Assembly: GCA_022562275.1 (NCBI GenBank)
Contig: JADFPP010000014.1
Location: 1-53,987 of the forward strand
Length of the DNA stretch: 53,987 nt
Direction: 5' to 3'
DNA from: Bacteroidota bacterium
GTDB taxonomy: Bacteria; Bacteroidota; Ignavibacteria; Ignavibacteriales; Ignavibacteriaceae
Shown: positions 25,962 to 31,168 of the stretch, one piece after another
Position numbering within the stretch: position 1 is the stretch's first letter
Layout: every line of letters begins with the position of its first letter
Program-made: the position numbers and the translations under genes
The notes under the pieces: generated by a model
What the model saw: the letters and a program-made list of their open reading frames with translations, nothing else
The model's database searches: none
Told to the model about the DNA's origin: nothing

Positions 25962-27113
25962 TCATAATTTTGAAAGTATATTAGCTGCTTCGATTAAAAC
26001 TTCATCACGTTTAGCAAAACATATACGGATAATCTTGTTTGTATCTCCTTCATCATAAAAAGGAGAGATAGGAATTACAGCAATTCCAACTTCTTTCGTT
26101 AAATATTCTGAAAATTTCATATCATCAAGTTCTGATACATCCGCATATTCTAGCAACTGAAAATAAGTTCCCATACAAGGCATCAATTTAAATTTAGAAT
26201 TTTTAATTCGCCCCCGGAATGTATCTCTCTTCTTCTGATAAAAATCACCTAAGGAATTATAGTGAGTTTCATCCTGCAGGTAATCTGCATAGGCATATTG
26301 TATTGGTGTATTAGCAGAGAATACTATAAACTGATGCATCTTTCTAAACTCATTTGTTAATAACTCAGGAGCTGCACAATAACCCATCTTCCAACCGGTT
26401 GTATGAAAAGTTTTTCCGAATGAGGAAATTACAAAGGATCGCCTAACAAGTATCTCAGATTCTGCAAAACTTATGTGTTTCTCTCCATCAAATACGATGT
26501 GCTCATAAACCTCATCACTTATAATCAGAATGTTTGTATTCTCAGTTAATTCTTCAAGCTGCTTTATATCGTCTTCAGATATAAGGCTCCCTGTAGGATT
26601 ATGCGGTGAGTTAAGGATCATTAATTTTGTTTTTTCAGAAATACTTCTTCGGATTTCATCCCAATTGTAAGAGTAATCCTGCGGATTTAGTTTAACGAAT
26701 ACCGGTATTCCTCCGGCTGCTTTAACTCCGGGGACGTACGAATCATACGCCGGCTCAATTATAATTACTTCATCACCGGTTTGCACTGTTGCAGTTATAG
26801 CGGTGTAGATTGCCTGTGTTGCTCCTGCAGTTATTGTTATTTCATTATCTTTGTCATAAGTTTTTCCATACAGTTTTTTTATCAATGCAGAAATTTGTTC
26901 TCTCAACTCTGGCACACCCGGCATCGGTGCATATTGGTTAAATCCCTTTTTTTGATAATGATTTACCAATTGAAGTAATTTGTTGCTGCAGTTAAAATCA
27001 GGAAAGCCCTGTGCCAGGTTTATTGCATTATATTCCAATGCCATTTTAGACATAATCGTAAATATGCTTGTACTGATTTCAGGAAGTTTTGATTGAAGAT
27101 TTACTTCACGCAT
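25962..27113 (-). CDS. PLP-dependent aminotransferase, methionine/kynurenine aminotransferase type
   Basis: A class I/II aminotransferase of about 383 aa. Diagnostic sites, numbered from the first possible codon, are NLAQGFPDF (37-45), GATQAIYTA (102-110), EPAYDSY, NSPHNPTG (173-180, substrate carboxylate and PLP ring contact), SDEVYEH (204-210) and the PLP-binding lysine in SSFGKTFHTTGWKMG (K239). The NLAQGFPDF opening and HTTGWKMGY place it with YbdL-like methionine and kynurenine aminotransferases; exact substrates are not certain. I use the ATG at 27113 rather than the TTG at 27128, since it gives the usual N-terminus MREVNLQSKLPE. The gene stands alone. Confidence 0.88.
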   Translation of the reverse strand: MREVNLQSKLPEISTSIFTIMSKMALEYNAINLAQGFPDFNCSNKLLQLVNHYQKKGFNQYAPMPGVPELREQISALIKKLYGKTYDKDNEITITAGATQAIYTAITATVQTGDEVIIIEPAYDSYVPGVKAAGGIPVFVKLNPQDYSYNWDEIRRSISEKTKLMILNSPHNPTGSLISEDDIKQLEELTENTNILIISDEVYEHIVFDGEKHISFAESEILVRRSFVISSFGKTFHTTGWKMGYCAAPELLTNEFRKMHQFIVFSANTPIQYAYADYLQDETHYNSLGDFYQKKRDTFRGRIKNSKFKLMPCMGTYFQLLEYADVSELDDMKFSEYLTKEVGIAVIPISPFYDEGDTNKIIRICFAKRDEVLIEAANILSKL

Positions 27114-27188
27114 AGCTATTGTTAACAATTACTTTTTAGTAAATAAAAGAGATTATAATTTATAAAATTATGGAATATGAATGAATTG

Positions 27189-27785
27189 CCACGTCTCCTG
27201 CCTACCGCAGGCAGGTTCAAGACGTGGATTAGAAAAGAGCAAGAGAGCGATGAGGTTTTAACCTCAACTTGTTTTTCTATTCAATTAATAAATTCTTGTT
27301 TGGGCTAATGCCCTGTGTTTTAACAGTTGTGGTTTTCCGTTCGCTGAAGTGAACGGGAATAGATAATTGATAAATCTATTAACAGATTGATGGTTTTTTA
27401 TTACTCATAAATTGCCGTCTGCTTTAAAGACCGTGTGAAAATTCGGATTATAATATTCTCACCCAAATTTATTTGGGTGAAATTGAGAAAAAACGAAATA
27501 TTCTCTAACCTGCTTTAGCTGGTTTAATCATTTTCACACAAGCTCTTTAGCTGACGGGAAATAAGAAGCACAAAACAAAAACGGCTTGCAGATAATCCTG
27601 TTTTTGTGAAAGTTTTCTTGACCCCAACGGGGTCAAAAGTTTGTAGAAAACAAAAAACGAAGAGGTCTAACAACCACATCGTGGTTGAATGTTTTAGCTA
27701 ATTATACAATTCACCTTCGATACCTTTGGCATCGTGCTAATTTTTTCTTTTTATTTCTTTACAAATGTTCGACTGCTTTGCAGTC
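27189..27785 (+). repeat. Dense array of at least ten hairpin repeats (REP/BIME-like)
   Basis: Nearly 600 bp without a gene, filled with inverted repeats: a nested pair CCACGTCT/AGACGTGG around CCTGCCT/AGGCAGG (27189-27227); TGAGGTT/AACCTCA (27251-27266); GGGC/GCCC (27302-27313); CCGTTC/GAACGG (27337-27356); AATCT/AGATT (27373-27388); TCACCCAAAT/ATTTGGGTGA (27459-27480); AACC/GGTT (27507-27524); CAAAAACGG with CCTGTTTTTG (27576-27606); TTGACCCC/GGGGTCAA (27618-27636); CAACCAC/GTGGTTG (27671-27687); CGATACC/GGCATCG (27718-27734); GACTGC/GCAGTC (27771-27785). Most have three- or four-base loops such as AAC, ATC or TTT. The stems differ in sequence, which rules out a simple tandem repeat. A REP-type transposase lies 3 kb away. 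Confidence 0.75.
27414..27558 (+). other. Candidate structured element closed by a long imperfect inverted repeat
   Basis: The segment 27414-27441 (GCCGTCTGCTTTAAAGAC, then CGTGTGAAAA) is matched in reverse by 27531-27558 (TTTTCACACAAGCTC, then TTTAGCTGACGG). This closes a roughly 145-nt domain holding two internal hairpins, at 27459-27480 and 27507-27524. The layout resembles a multi-branch RNA or a mobile-element end. Strand and function are unknown. Confidence 0.45.
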
Positions 27786-28024: not shown

Positions 28025-30405
28025 TTAAGGATCAATCATGTTCACATTTCCAAGAATACGCTCTATCCCCTCTAGGGGCGGATAATTTTCACCAAGATGA
28101 CGCAATTTATTATCAAATGTGAAAAATGAACCATCTCCAGGTGTCGCACTCTCTAAAACAGTTAAATTCCTAAAGCGTGTATCTAACAGGTTGTTAGGAC
28201 CTGCTTCTCCTGTGAACAGCTCTTCAGCAGCATCATTCCAATAAAATCGATTCCCAATATACGCAAGTTTAGCAATCGCTTCATCAATAATCCCGTCATT
28301 GTTGAAATCAAACGCCGCCCCAGAGTAAGGACCCCCATTCGGCCTTATGAATATGATCCATTGTCCTCCTCCTTCTCCGATAGGTGTTGGGTCGTTAAGT
28401 CCTAGCTTTACAACTTGTGCTGGTTTTTGCATACCAAGGATATACGTAGTTACAAGATAATTTTCAACAGAATCTTGAAGTGCGGTTGAGACCGTATCTC
28501 CCAGATCATTGATGCCCGGAATGATGAATTTATGCCTCGATGTATCGCTTTTGTCCATGTATTTCTTTCCAAAATAGGGAAAATTTAATGCCTTATCATT
28601 AACGAGAAAGTAAAACATTTTGAAGAGTGGCATCTGGCCAGGTTCCATGCCGTAGGATGTAACTGGGTGGAGTATTATGTCAGATATGTCTTGGCTGGCG
28701 TCGAAGTCATGGCTTGATTCGAAGCTGAGTGTATTTAAGCCAATGATGTGCTGTGCTTTGAGGGTCACGTTTGGCGTTGCGGATATTCTAATGTTGAACA
28801 GGCCGTTGGTGGTGTAAATCTTCTGTCCTGTTGCTGATTCTTTCACGTATCCTGCTATGGGTGGTCCTGTGCTGCCGTCTACTAGCTTGAGGTAGAAGTC
28901 GTTGTCGTAGATGCCGCCGGACAGTGTGACCATGTCGGTGAGGTTTGCTATGATGTCTTCTTGGTTTTGTGTTCCTCCTGTGGCTTGTGCTATGAGTTGT
29001 ATGAGGATGTTTCCGTTGGCTTGGGGGGGTCGTTTGTCTTATAGAAGATGCTGTCCTGTGTTGATCTTGTCCGGTGCCATATTCCTGTGTTGAGGAGTAT
29101 TAGTGTGTCTAGTCCGTTGTTGTATGGGAAGTCTGCTTTTGCAACTCCTATTTCTTCTCCTTCTCTTCCTTGTAGGTTTCCGCCCTGGTAACCCGCATAA
29201 GTTTCCTGCAGTATTTTATTAACTTCTGCTGGAATCACTACACGCAAAGTTTCAGTATCTGCTCTGTTCTTAAGATCATTAAAGATCAGGTCTATTGATA
29301 CAGCCGCAATTGAATCTACTGCAAAGCTTCCGTCCTGCACAGTAATATCCCGATTGAGAAAATTGTCAAGAGTATCATAAGCTGCAACATCCACACTATC
29401 TAACGGCATTCCATTAGGTGTGGTCACAAATCCATAAACTAAACAAGTTTCTGCAGTTAGGTTAATATTTAATTCTGTTGTATCTGCTGTTGAGTGCAAA
29501 GCAGTTGTTTTAAGCTCAAGAGGAATTTGTCCGTTTAAGGATGTATCAATTGTTGCAAAGTATAAACTATCGGAAGTAGAGTTAATAAAATACCAGGTGT
29601 TTGTATTCATCAGTTCAATTGTATCCAACTGAGTTCCATAGATAAACCAACTCTTTGCAACTGCAATCTGCTCTCCTTCATCTCCAACTATCTGTGAAGG
29701 ACCTGTATAGGAAAATTCCTCATACAAGACCTGATGAATTTGTGCAGGAAGAGAAACAGTTATTTCTGTATAATCAACTCTGTTAAAAATGTTAATATCA
29801 ATAAACTTAACAAGATAATCTTCATTTATTGTACTGCCCTTATATGAAGAATAAAAACTACCTGAAATTGAAGTGCCGATTGCGTTTAAAGCTCCATTTA
29901 TTTTAAGCAGTTTAATATGTTTTGCATCTTTACCATTATCAAATCTTGCAAAGTAAACACCTTGAGCAACTTCATTACCAAAGCTGTTTCTGCCGTTCCA
30001 CTGAGCAACGTAAAATCCCTTTTGTCTGTAACCGCTAGTTAAAGTTGTAATCTTCTGTCCAATGCTGTTGTAAATAGTAATTGTTATTTCTTCAGGTTCA
30101 TTAACTTCATAAATAATGTTTGTCGTTTTATCAAAAGGTGAAGGATAATTAGGATAAAGTTCAAATGATGATGGTACAGGATTGGAAATGTTATTCACTC
30201 CTGTGACAATAGAATCAATTTCAAAGTAACCAAGCGAATCAGTAATTGTGCTTGTTATCTGCTGGTTGTTCTGCCATACTTCTACTCTTATAAGATCAAT
30301 ACCTACAGAATCTGGAAATGTTACAGTGCCTGATAAATCGGGTTGTGCGTTGAGAATACTCAAAGGAAAGATAGTGAAGAATAGATATTTAATGCTTTTC
30401 TTCAT
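28025..30405 (-). CDS. Large secreted protein with internal T9SS sorting-like domain, frameshifted at a C7/G7 tract
   Basis: The reading frame from 30405 encodes a signal peptide (about 1-20, ending LNAQ), a carboxypeptidase-regulatory-like fold (24-70), then residues 81-169 that match a type IX secretion type A sorting / FlgD-like domain (FELYPNYPSPFDKTTNIIYE, GFYVAQWNGRNSFGNEVAQG, VYFARF). That domain normally ends a protein, but here hundreds of residues follow. The frame breaks at seven C residues on the coding strand (plus-strand G at 29023-29029): the first frame stops at 28990, and the alternative frame continues QANGNILIQLIAQATGGTQN to 28025. A -1 shift or one extra base joins them into about 793 aa. 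Base composition changes inside the gene. No function is recognised; surface exposure is inferred. Confidence 0.65.
29023..29029 (-). other. Homopolymer (G7/C7) at the frame break of the secreted-protein gene
   Basis: Seven G residues on the plus strand, read as GAC CCC CCC AAG in the coding strand, lie exactly where the two halves of the gene change frame. A tract length of eight would put the halves in one frame. Homopolymers of this kind in surface-protein genes often vary in length, but sequencing error is an equal possibility. Confidence 0.55.
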
Positions 30406-30420: not shown

Positions 30421-30478
30421 GTATATTTTTTAGGAATATCACCGCTCGCATTAGTTGATATACTTTATTGAATATTAT

Positions 30479-31125
30479 GAATAGCTCCGCCTTTCAAGGC
30501 GGAGATAAAAAACAATTGAAAACCATCTGGGCTTTAGCCCAAACTTATACAAACAATTAAAAACTTTTTCTATATTATTCCTATAATATTTTTAAAAATA
30601 AATCAAAAAATAAAAATGCCATACGTTAAAATTTGGATTCATCTTATATTTTCAACTAAAAACAGAGATAAACTTATCTCTAAACAACTAAAACTACAAT
30701 TGTTGAAACACATTAAGGAAAACTCAATTAAAAAGAATATTTATATCGATTTTATGAATTGTGTCAGTGATCATATCCATTTATTAATTTCCCTTAACTC
30801 TGAGCAGTCAATTTCAAAAGTTACTCAGCTAATAAAAGGTGAATCATCACATTGGATAAATAAAAACAACCTTATACCTAATAAATTCGAATGGCAGGAT
30901 GAATATATGGCTGTATCAATAGGTCATTCGCAAGTCGATAGAGTGAGAGAATATATCAAAAACCAAGAGGAACATCACAGGAAGAAAACTTTTAAGGAAG
31001 AGTATGATGAGTTTATTGATAAATACGGATTTGAGATAGTGCAAAAGTAGATCGATAAGTTGTGGTTAAAACCCCACACTACCGATCGCTGTTTTAATTC
31101 TCCGCCTTGAAAGGCGGAGCTATTC
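30479..31125 (+). mobile_element. IS200/REP-associated transposase unit with inverted 26-bp hairpin repeats
   Basis: A single transposase gene lies between two copies of a 26-bp sequence in opposite orientation: 30479-30504 and its exact reverse complement at 31100-31125. Each copy contains the hairpin CTCCGCCTT-AAGGCGGAG with a two-base centre. A further hairpin TGGGC-TTTA-GCCCA sits inside the left end (30528-30541). Inverted hairpin repeats around a lone Y1 transposase fit the REP-associated (RAYT) arrangement better than a classical IS200, which has unlike subterminal hairpins. Another palindrome, CCTGCC-GAAA-GGCAGG, lies just outside at 31169-31184. Confidence 0.75.
30616..31050 (+). CDS. 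IS200/IS605-family Y1 transposase (TnpA, RAYT-like)
   Basis: A 144-aa HUH single-strand transposase. The HUH motif is SDHIHLLISL (H53 and H55), and the catalytic tyrosine is Y113 in VREYIKNQEEHHRKKTF, with the conserved glutamine at 117. WINKNNLIPNKFEWQDEY between them is the typical linker of this clade. These enzymes cut and join single-stranded DNA at hairpins without generating double-strand breaks. The gene is intact and sits between inverted hairpin repeats, so it could act on them and on related hairpins nearby. No TnpB gene is present. The start is the ATG at 30616. Confidence 0.9.
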   Translation: MPYVKIWIHLIFSTKNRDKLISKQLKLQLLKHIKENSIKKNIYIDFMNCVSDHIHLLISLNSEQSISKVTQLIKGESSHWINKNNLIPNKFEWQDEYMAVSIGHSQVDRVREYIKNQEEHHRKKTFKEEYDEFIDKYGFEIVQK

Positions 31126-31168
31126 AAGAATATTTGTAGGCTGTTGTAGGTAAGATTCTTCACTACTG

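Follow-up and report, generated by a model that had tools for sequence, protein, structure and literature searches.

A hairpin array in an Ignavibacteriaceae genome is probably a pile-up of small mobile DNA elements with ends fixed in shape, not in sequence

The hairpin cluster at 27186-27785 of the window, the 53,987-nucleotide stretch of DNA analyzed in this work, is probably an accumulation of small mobile DNA elements with ends fixed in shape and not in sequence, and the same shape was found beside one subclass of Y1 transposase genes in several phyla. We put the probability at roughly two in three that the array served as a landing pad, on which gene-less elements accumulated side by side and nested in one another, with arms read by Y1 proteins, alongside a second, DDE-like system. 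The evidence comes from the composition of the array, the geometry of the arms beside the genes, the association of hairpin code with transposase clade, an insertion into a hairpin loop with its duplication, and the absence of the block from two congeners, all of which were directly observed.

Composition of the hairpin array

The array is intergenic, with an aminotransferase gene (25962-27128) on one side and two ORFs on the other. Twelve hairpins with stems of 4-9 bp and loops of 3-5 nt were identified across 27186-27785, two of them split by insertions. A strict count (loops of 3-4, score of at least 13, zero mismatches) gave five hairpins, compared with 0.62 ± 0.74 in 300 dinucleotide shuffles (maximum of 4); 260 other 597-bp segments averaged 0.58, and their maximum, 5, equaled the array value. 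When one mismatch was allowed, the array still gave five, and another segment of the window reached seven. The first scans overlooked stems mismatched near the loop; the corrected scan (loops of 3-5, score of at least 15) found seven hairpins in the array, and the densest 597-bp segments of the 54 kb started at 27101-27301. RNA folding of the array region was strong and approximately equal on the two strands (z of -8.55 on the + strand and -6.78 on the - strand), and 0 of 20 shuffles per strand reached it. The initial annotation had described at least ten near-perfect inverted repeats in 600 bp, starting at 27189 and sharing one architecture (stem of 5-10 bases, loop of 3-4 bases). The number was borne out by the 12 hairpins (two interrupted), with both strands exceeding their shuffles, and 27189 proved to be the first stem base. 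The hairpins follow two codes (8-bp stem with TTYA loop, and triloop), not one.

Rather than one structure, the array comprises at least four gene-less elements arranged as a mosaic. Their features are as follows.

27186-27359: element 1, gene-less, four hairpins in mirror order, 8-bp (+) and 6-bp (+), then 4-bp (-) and 8-bp (-)
27189-27227, + strand: outer hairpin of element 1, CCACGTCT-TTCA-AGACGTGG, split between 5' stem and loop
27197-27215: 19-bp palindrome CCTGCCTACCGCAGGCAGG (CCTGCCT-accgc-AGGCAGG), insert within element 1
27251-27266, + strand: inner hairpin of element 1, TGAGGT-TTTA-ACCTCA, with its loop 41 nt from the outer one
27301-27313 (stem-loop 27302-27313), - strand: inner hairpin of the opposite arm of element 1, (T)GGGC-TAAT-GCCC, read off the sequence
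27337-27356, - strand: outer hairpin of the opposite arm of element 1, CCGTTCGC-TGAA-GTGAACGG, one mismatch
27412-27557, + strand: element 2, foot TTG and outer 8-bp hairpin CCGTCTGC-TTTA-GCTGACGG with one mismatch, split by element 3
27415-27557, + strand: split outer hairpin CCGTCTGC/GCTGACGG of element 2, read off the sequence
27427-27545: element 3 (D), 119-bp inverted-repeat MITE in the 4-nt loop of element 2
27427-27442, + strand: left inverted repeat of element 3, AAGACCGTGTGAAAAT, from the sequence (the pattern scan places the repeat end at 27428-27443)
27459-27524, + strand: arm-like hairpin pair within element 3, loops 46 nt apart
27459-27480, + strand: hairpin TCACCCAAA-ttta-TTTGGGTGA of element 3, from the hairpin scan
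27507-27524, + strand: hairpin AACCTGC-ttta-GCTGGTT of element 3, one mismatch
27530-27545, - strand: right inverted repeat of element 3, ATTTTCACACAAGCTC, from the sequence
27618-27785, - strand: element 4 (B), a triloop element without genes, whose four hairpins form two pairs (27618/27671 and 27718/27771)
27618-27636: hairpin TTGACCCC-aac-GGGGTCAA of element 4
27671-27687: hairpin CAACCAC-atc-GTGGTTG of element 4
27718-27734: hairpin CGATACC-ttt-GGCATCG of element 4, one mismatch
27771-27785: hairpin GACTGC-ttt-GCAGTC of element 4

Element 1 has the feet TTG and GAA (TTC on the other strand), and its 19-bp palindrome sits at a loop edge. A copy of the split outer hairpin, 88% identical and split alike, was found at C113:12411-12508. 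The right arm of element 1 (27286-27359, - strand) was matched by a covariance model of the arm with an E value of 7.5e-4 and was the sole array arm to reach the model. For element 2, reading the hairpins of the array sequence revealed no intact inner hairpin; the region 27351-27424 is 75% identical to C17:6954-7030, next to a Y1 gene at C17:7166. The loop of element 2, TTTA, is present on both flanks of element 3 (27423-27426 and 27546-27549). The loops of element 4 are approximately 52 nt apart within each pair, and one of its arms shares 74-82% identity over 61-81 nt with copies at C57, at C75 and around the Y1 gene C122:33121; part of the linkers match the C122 copies, and its two outer stems differ from them.

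No arm inside the array passed a strict arm scan. The arms of element 1 fail because the left outer hairpin is split and the right inner loop is TAAT, and elements 2 and 3 fail because the former is split and the latter has a mismatched inner stem. A genome-wide search for the hairpins, which had been proposed earlier, was carried out with a 701-bp array query (blast). Pieces of the array recurred at seven other places in the same genome, which has 15 Y1_Tnp matches; five of these places lie approximately 1 kb or less from a Y1_Tnp gene. One composite structure was also considered as a candidate and was ruled out by the blast and covariance-model hits, which show separable elements.

The genomic position of the array was compared among relatives. 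In G004 and G003, the orthologous aminotransferase gene (approximately 81-82% and 71-73% identity, respectively) directly adjoins a Sel1-repeat gene (70% and 60%), which in the window lies past the Y1 element. The 4.1-kb block, made up of the array, two ORFs, and the Y1 element, is therefore a variable part of the genome. The flank examined in G001 holds a run of N and yielded no Sel1 gene, and two congeners gave no match at the threshold. No empty site was found for the arm-bounded Y1 element alone, and the 4.1-kb difference also includes the two other ORFs. These are adjacent (28025-30405); one has an FlgD-Ig domain and matches T9SS sorting domains below the cut-off, and the other has no Pfam match. 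They may be a decayed gene or cargo.

Two-hairpin arms beside Y1 transposase genes

The Y1 element of the window, 3 kb away from the array, was delimited as follows.

30482-30541, + strand: left arm, TAG, CTCCGCCT-TTCA-AGGCGGAG, then TGGGC-TTTA-GCCCA
30616-31050, + strand: Y1 (HUH) transposase gene, motif YIKNQEEHH, Pfam PF01797 at 97.5 bits
31061-31122, - strand: right arm, foot TAG, CTCCGCCT-TTCA-AGGCGGAG, then TGGGGT-TTTA-ACCACA (one mismatch)

By its motif alone, the encoded protein is of the TnpA_Y1 subclass 1.2 type (Y---Q--HH motif with an IS200-like core). It scored 68.5 bits with the NCBIfam IS200/IS605 model and 30 bits with the REP-associated model, of which the cut-off is 80. Its nearest solved relative by sequence is the ISHp608 transposase TnpA (PDB 2a6m), and eight Y1 copies in the same genome are 34-87% identical to it. 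The left arm was the best covariance-model match of the genome (57.2 bits) and passed the strict arm scan with a spacing of 40; the mismatched inner stem of the right arm is not counted by that scan. The ends of this gene resemble element 1 of the array. GAATATT is present on both sides of the Y1 element (30470-31134), 8 bases outside each outer stem, as a possible 7-bp duplication. Elsewhere, a Y1 gene of the same family (L002 590-1445, G000:C113) is broken in two pieces by another hairpin element, and a Y1 gene at L005 from approximately 2040 onward (G000:C17) ends abruptly where the sequence changes and is G + C-richer by eye, possibly in a chimeric contig.

Loci with subclass 1.2-type genes were fetched from genome contigs by protein pattern alone, and the best 80 of 566 were analyzed. 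They came mainly from Bacteroidota and Ignavibacteriota and also from Calditrichota, KSB1, Fidelibacterota, Acidobacteriota, and others. Full genes were present at 76 (four were dropped), and two more were dropped for short flanks, leaving 74 genes. Hairpins with a score of at least 18 were found within 300 bp upstream of 76% and downstream of 72% of these 74 genes; the corresponding values were 7% and 11% in shuffles, and 8.5% in 530 control segments. Among the flank tetraloop hairpins with stems of at least 6 bp at the best 80 of 566 loci, 165 of 183 had the loop TTYA or its complement, against 23 of 119 in the control. The stem was exactly 8 bp in 112 of these 165 TTYA-type hairpins, with a second peak at 4-5 bp. 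Exact 8-bp TTYA-type hairpins thus numbered 112 in 44,697 flank bases at these best 80 of 566 loci, compared with 13 in 198,625 control bases far from these genes.

TTYA prevailed upstream and its complement downstream, which indicates that the arms are inverted around the gene. The foot T[AT][AG] was present at 114 of 137 hairpins (best 80 of 566 loci); the canonical REP foot, GT[AG]G at the 5' side (0-2 nt), was tried as well and was present at 1 of 137. Of 215 outer hairpins, 115 had an inner hairpin 3' on the same strand, sought at a distance of 28-49 nt and found at 34-49 nt; the three mirror placements accounted for 1, 4, and 1 of the 215. The main-clade arm thus consists of a foot TWR and a stem of mostly exactly 8 bp with loop TTYA, followed after 34-49 nt by a shorter stem with the same loop. 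The stem sequence is free, with 77 distinct 5' stems among 136 (best 80 of 566 loci). The covariation analysis proposed in the initial annotation showed that 11 of 12 stem pairs vary on both sides in 20 arms, a biased figure in that these arms were preselected for pairing and a spacing of 37. Conservation of shape rather than sequence, the central claim of that annotation, was confirmed near subclass 1.2-type Y1 genes, where the shape is retained and the stem sequence is free.

The hairpin code differs between two clades of Y1 proteins. In the genome under study and the first relatives, the 8-bp TTYA hairpin accompanied 14 of 33 subclass 1.2-type genes, both clades pooled, and none of seven control genes from other Y1 classes. 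In a quick tree of 109 proteins, triloop hairpins fell in one clade (SH-aLRT 100; 16 triloop, three neither), and the TTYA code was found outside it; 15 of the 109 genes had neither code. The triloop label changed three times on this tree (shuffled mean, 15.2) and the TTYA label 13 times. A second set of 47 genes was obtained from 56 regions (nine without a recognized gene were dropped), and clades were cut from a FastTree tree irrespective of support. In this set, the 8-bp TTYA hairpin was present at 15 of 19 main-clade genes, 2 of 20 triloop-clade genes, and 0 of 8 genes from other classes; arms were present at 11 of 19 main-clade and 0 of 20 triloop-clade genes. The 3-nt loops of the sister (triloop) clade are approximately 53 nt apart; triloop pairs at 48-58 nt were found at 12 of 19 and 10 of 20 triloop-clade members, compared with 1 of 19 in the main clade of the second set.

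The covariance model of the arm found 34 arms in the genome under study at E ≤ 1 and 27 at E ≤ 0.01. With stricter filters, arms were present in 34 of 41 genomes, at up to 92 per genome. With Y1 genes counted among the matches listed and kinship ignored, every one of the 20 genomes in which a main-clade gene was classified carried arms (mean of 24), and 14 of the 21 genomes without one still carried them (mean of 8 over the 21, up to 46). None of the seven arm-less genomes had a classified main-clade gene among the matches listed. Under the same conditions, the number of arms in the 41 genomes correlated with that of main-clade genes (Spearman 0.55) and hardly with that of triloop genes (0.07).

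Insertion into hairpin loops and target duplications

Element 3 has the terminal inverted repeats and fixed-length target duplication of a DDE-type MITE. Forty distinct repeat ends were examined at loci from the genus (40 of 54 matches listed, some of them shared). Among the matches listed, 33 of the 40 MITE ends adjoined a listed loop (26 TTYA/TRAA and seven CTTA/TGTA), compared with 626 of 4150 random positions. At 15 of the 40 ends, from 12 loci, the loop was duplicated and the stem rejoined (at least six of eight bases), compared with 11 of 4150 random positions. In the genome under study, the repeat pattern of element 3 occurred 29 times against two for the reversed pattern (one mismatch allowed), and TTACGCAA-type ends 33 times against three. 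Inspection by eye of the ORFs at 17 of 20 loci identified no autonomous partner for element 3; a putative DDE-like transposase would be bounded by GAGNCTGTGTGAAAAT or TTACGCAA-type repeats. Pairs of CTGAAGTTACGCAA ends 151 bp apart (G000:C50:11067-11217, G000:C122:15447-15597, and others), where the covariance model found no arm, may represent a MITE family that lacks the hairpin module.

Five gene-less four-hairpin copies were seen by eye to have inverted repeats outside the hairpins and target duplications (L165, L169, L172, L178, and L135). The duplications are 7 bp in G027 (TAATTGA at L169, TTAATTA at L172, and TTAATAA at L165), 8 bp at L178 of G027 (TTAAATAA), and 7 bp at L135 of the genome under study (TTAATTA). 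L182 is an imperfect case by eye. Insertion of IS200/IS605 elements is not known to produce a target duplication. Since the duplications in the five gene-less copies are unexpected from Y1 transposition, a DDE-like transposase probably spreads part of this population. A further small palindromic insert, starting with ATCAC, was noted in the right outer hairpin loop at L165 (243-508), L172 (235-510), L178 (238-513), and L135 (1540-1600); inserts of at least two kinds therefore seem to be drawn to hairpin loops.

Among 49 Y1 elements, no common duplication of fixed length and place was found; L112, of which the protein is the same as that of L025, was left out of the duplication and spacer comparisons. 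A repeat of at least five bases was present at 20 of the 49, against 12 expected, and these are partly spacers of neighboring copies. Long direct repeats at L060, L095, L097, and L131 were rejected as target duplications, being by eye the spacer between neighboring copies of one and the same element. In 5 of 11 loci, the similarity between the spacers on the two sides exceeded the 95% level of random pairs. At L025, L058, L092, L095, and L131, the Y1 genes have partial copies on both sides with the same outer stems, as if by tandem integration.

Origin of the array and comparison with known systems

In the landing-pad reading, elements 1 and 2 would carry decayed or interrupted two-hairpin arms like those that bound main-clade subclass 1.2 genes, element 4 would carry the triloop arms of the sister clade, and element 3 would belong to an inverted-repeat MITE family that lands in hairpin loops. 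On single-stranded DNA, for example during replication, an arm may fold, and the Y1 protein would read not its stem sequence but the geometry of the hairpin, the TTYA loop, and the TWR foot; stems could then drift with their pairing kept. The protein would cut near the foot and move arm-bounded DNA with or without the gene, and a second, DDE-like transposase acting on inverted repeats would spread arm-carrying MITEs, with hairpin loops as targets. Our preferred reading, an inference, is that the Y1 protein recognizes the arms, since each of the two hairpin codes goes with its own clade of Y1 proteins. A more specific version is held tentatively, at clearly less than even odds: main-clade subclass 1.2 Y1 proteins may read a shape code (8-bp stem, TTYA loop, 34-49 nt, 4-6-bp TTYA stem, and TWR foot) with no fixed stem sequence, and a separate DDE-like system may have taken up the arms as cargo and use 4-nt hairpin loops as insertion targets, both together building nested arrays. 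The initial annotation had suggested REP elements moved by the Y1 transposase 3 kb away. The REP-like nature of the pieces, their tie to Y1 genes, and the resemblance of element 1 to the arms of that gene were upheld; a single mover was not. As the array holds elements of two Y1 clades and a MITE, that protein could account for only some of the pieces, and its movement of them is putative.

The hairpins might instead be passengers of DDE-type MITEs, with Y1 genes irrelevant to their spread and merely sharing a terminator-like decoration. The outer inverted repeats and 7-8-bp duplications of five copies, the inverted repeats and duplicated loop of element 3, the 33 TTACGCAA-type ends against three reversed in the genome under study, and the presence of arms in genomes that lack a classified main-clade gene (14 of 21, among the matches listed) are all consistent with this explanation. 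We consider it unlikely, however, in view of the hairpin code that tracks Y1 phylogeny, the inverted arms close to Y1 genes in several phyla (best 80 of 566 loci), and the greater number of arms in genomes with a classified main-clade gene (mean of 24 against 8, among the matches listed).

Two explanations that dispense with mobility or with shape recognition were judged far less probable. Strong folding and an intergenic location would suit a structured non-coding RNA or a bidirectional terminator cluster kept for the host, but both strands fold about equally, the block is missing at the orthologous site in G003 and G004, and pieces of the array recur elsewhere, nested by insertion. Rfam covariance models at gathering scores gave 0 matches in the window, and a tRNA search found none. 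Non-coding RNA, which the initial annotation had offered as an alternative, was accordingly rejected as a candidate: there was no Rfam match and no tRNA, both strands fold, and the pieces are nested and dispersed, 5 of 7 within approximately 1 kb of a Y1 gene. It is likewise very improbable that template-switch correction of quasi-palindromes, and not recognition of shape, is what keeps the stems perfect. Stem pairs do change freely on both sides, in arms chosen for pairing, as such correction would allow; correction alone, however, would not set an 8-bp stem, a TTYA loop, and a second hairpin at 34-49 nt, and the 13 exact 8-bp TTYA-type hairpins in 198,625 control bases contrast with 112 in 44,697 flank bases.

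If the landing-pad reading holds, subclass 1.2 TnpA_Y1, described as REP-less, gains a precise candidate substrate, and the arms offer a clean case for how an HUH enzyme could be shape-specific while sequence drifts. It would also explain hairpin clusters in Bacteroidota and their relatives that are open to being mistaken for RNA genes. The published signature motif of the subclass is Y---Q--HH, and Table 1 of the same study lists "no" for REP (Quentin 2018, PMC6006769). The automatic REP search described there required GTAG or GTGG near the hairpin foot (PMC6006769), which is probably why the substrate of subclass 1.2 was missed. The published trait "no REP or typical terminal hairpins" is contradicted by the flank hairpins found in this work. 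A literature search, with many subscription papers outside it, found no paper tying subclass 1.2 genes to such hairpin ends.

REPtrons (RAYT/TnpA_REP with REP; PMC6006769; Corneloup 2021, PMC8266576) share with the present elements inverted foot-bearing hairpins at a Y1 HUH gene, gene-less dispersed copies, and a hairpin type that follows the transposase group. The window Y1 HUH gene, flanked by inverted short hairpins, has this arrangement. REPtron proteins, in contrast, are of class 2 (Y---NP) and score above the cut-off of the REP-associated NCBIfam model, whereas the window protein has YIKNQEEHH and 30 bits against 80; it is of subclass 1.2 by motif, the foot is TWR and not GT[AG]G, each end consists of two hairpins of unequal stem, and the stem sequence is free. 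REPINs (Bertels and Rainey 2011, PMC3116915) are likewise gene-less inverted pairs of hairpin units with compensatory changes. They pair conserved REP sequences with a folding spacer, whereas the present elements have four hairpins of which the loop and stem length are kept but the stem sequence is not. TIRtrons also combine Y1 genes (TIRYT) with inverted repeats, some self-complementary and some in dimers or clusters, and the motif GGGGWSAS is common among them (Di Nocera 2013, PMC3733652); 20 of 26 TIRYT proteins are placed in subclass 2.1 (PMC6006769). The present proteins, in contrast, are of class 1 type with a TTYA loop code.

IS200/IS605 elements provide the closest solved relative (ISHp608 TnpA) and the matching NCBIfam model, and they share subterminal hairpins. 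IS608 has one hairpin per end. The present elements, in contrast, have two hairpins per end, and the Y1 copies in the genome under study are 34-87% identical to the window protein, whereas IS200 copies are near-identical within a genome according to Table 1 of PMC6006769. For IS1397, ISKpn1, and IS621 as well, a palindromic repeat (REP) serves as the insertion site of another element (PMC1525189). Unlike these, element 3 is a MITE without a recognized transposase; it lies in a hairpin loop of 4 nt, which it duplicates, and it contains an arm-like pair of hairpins.
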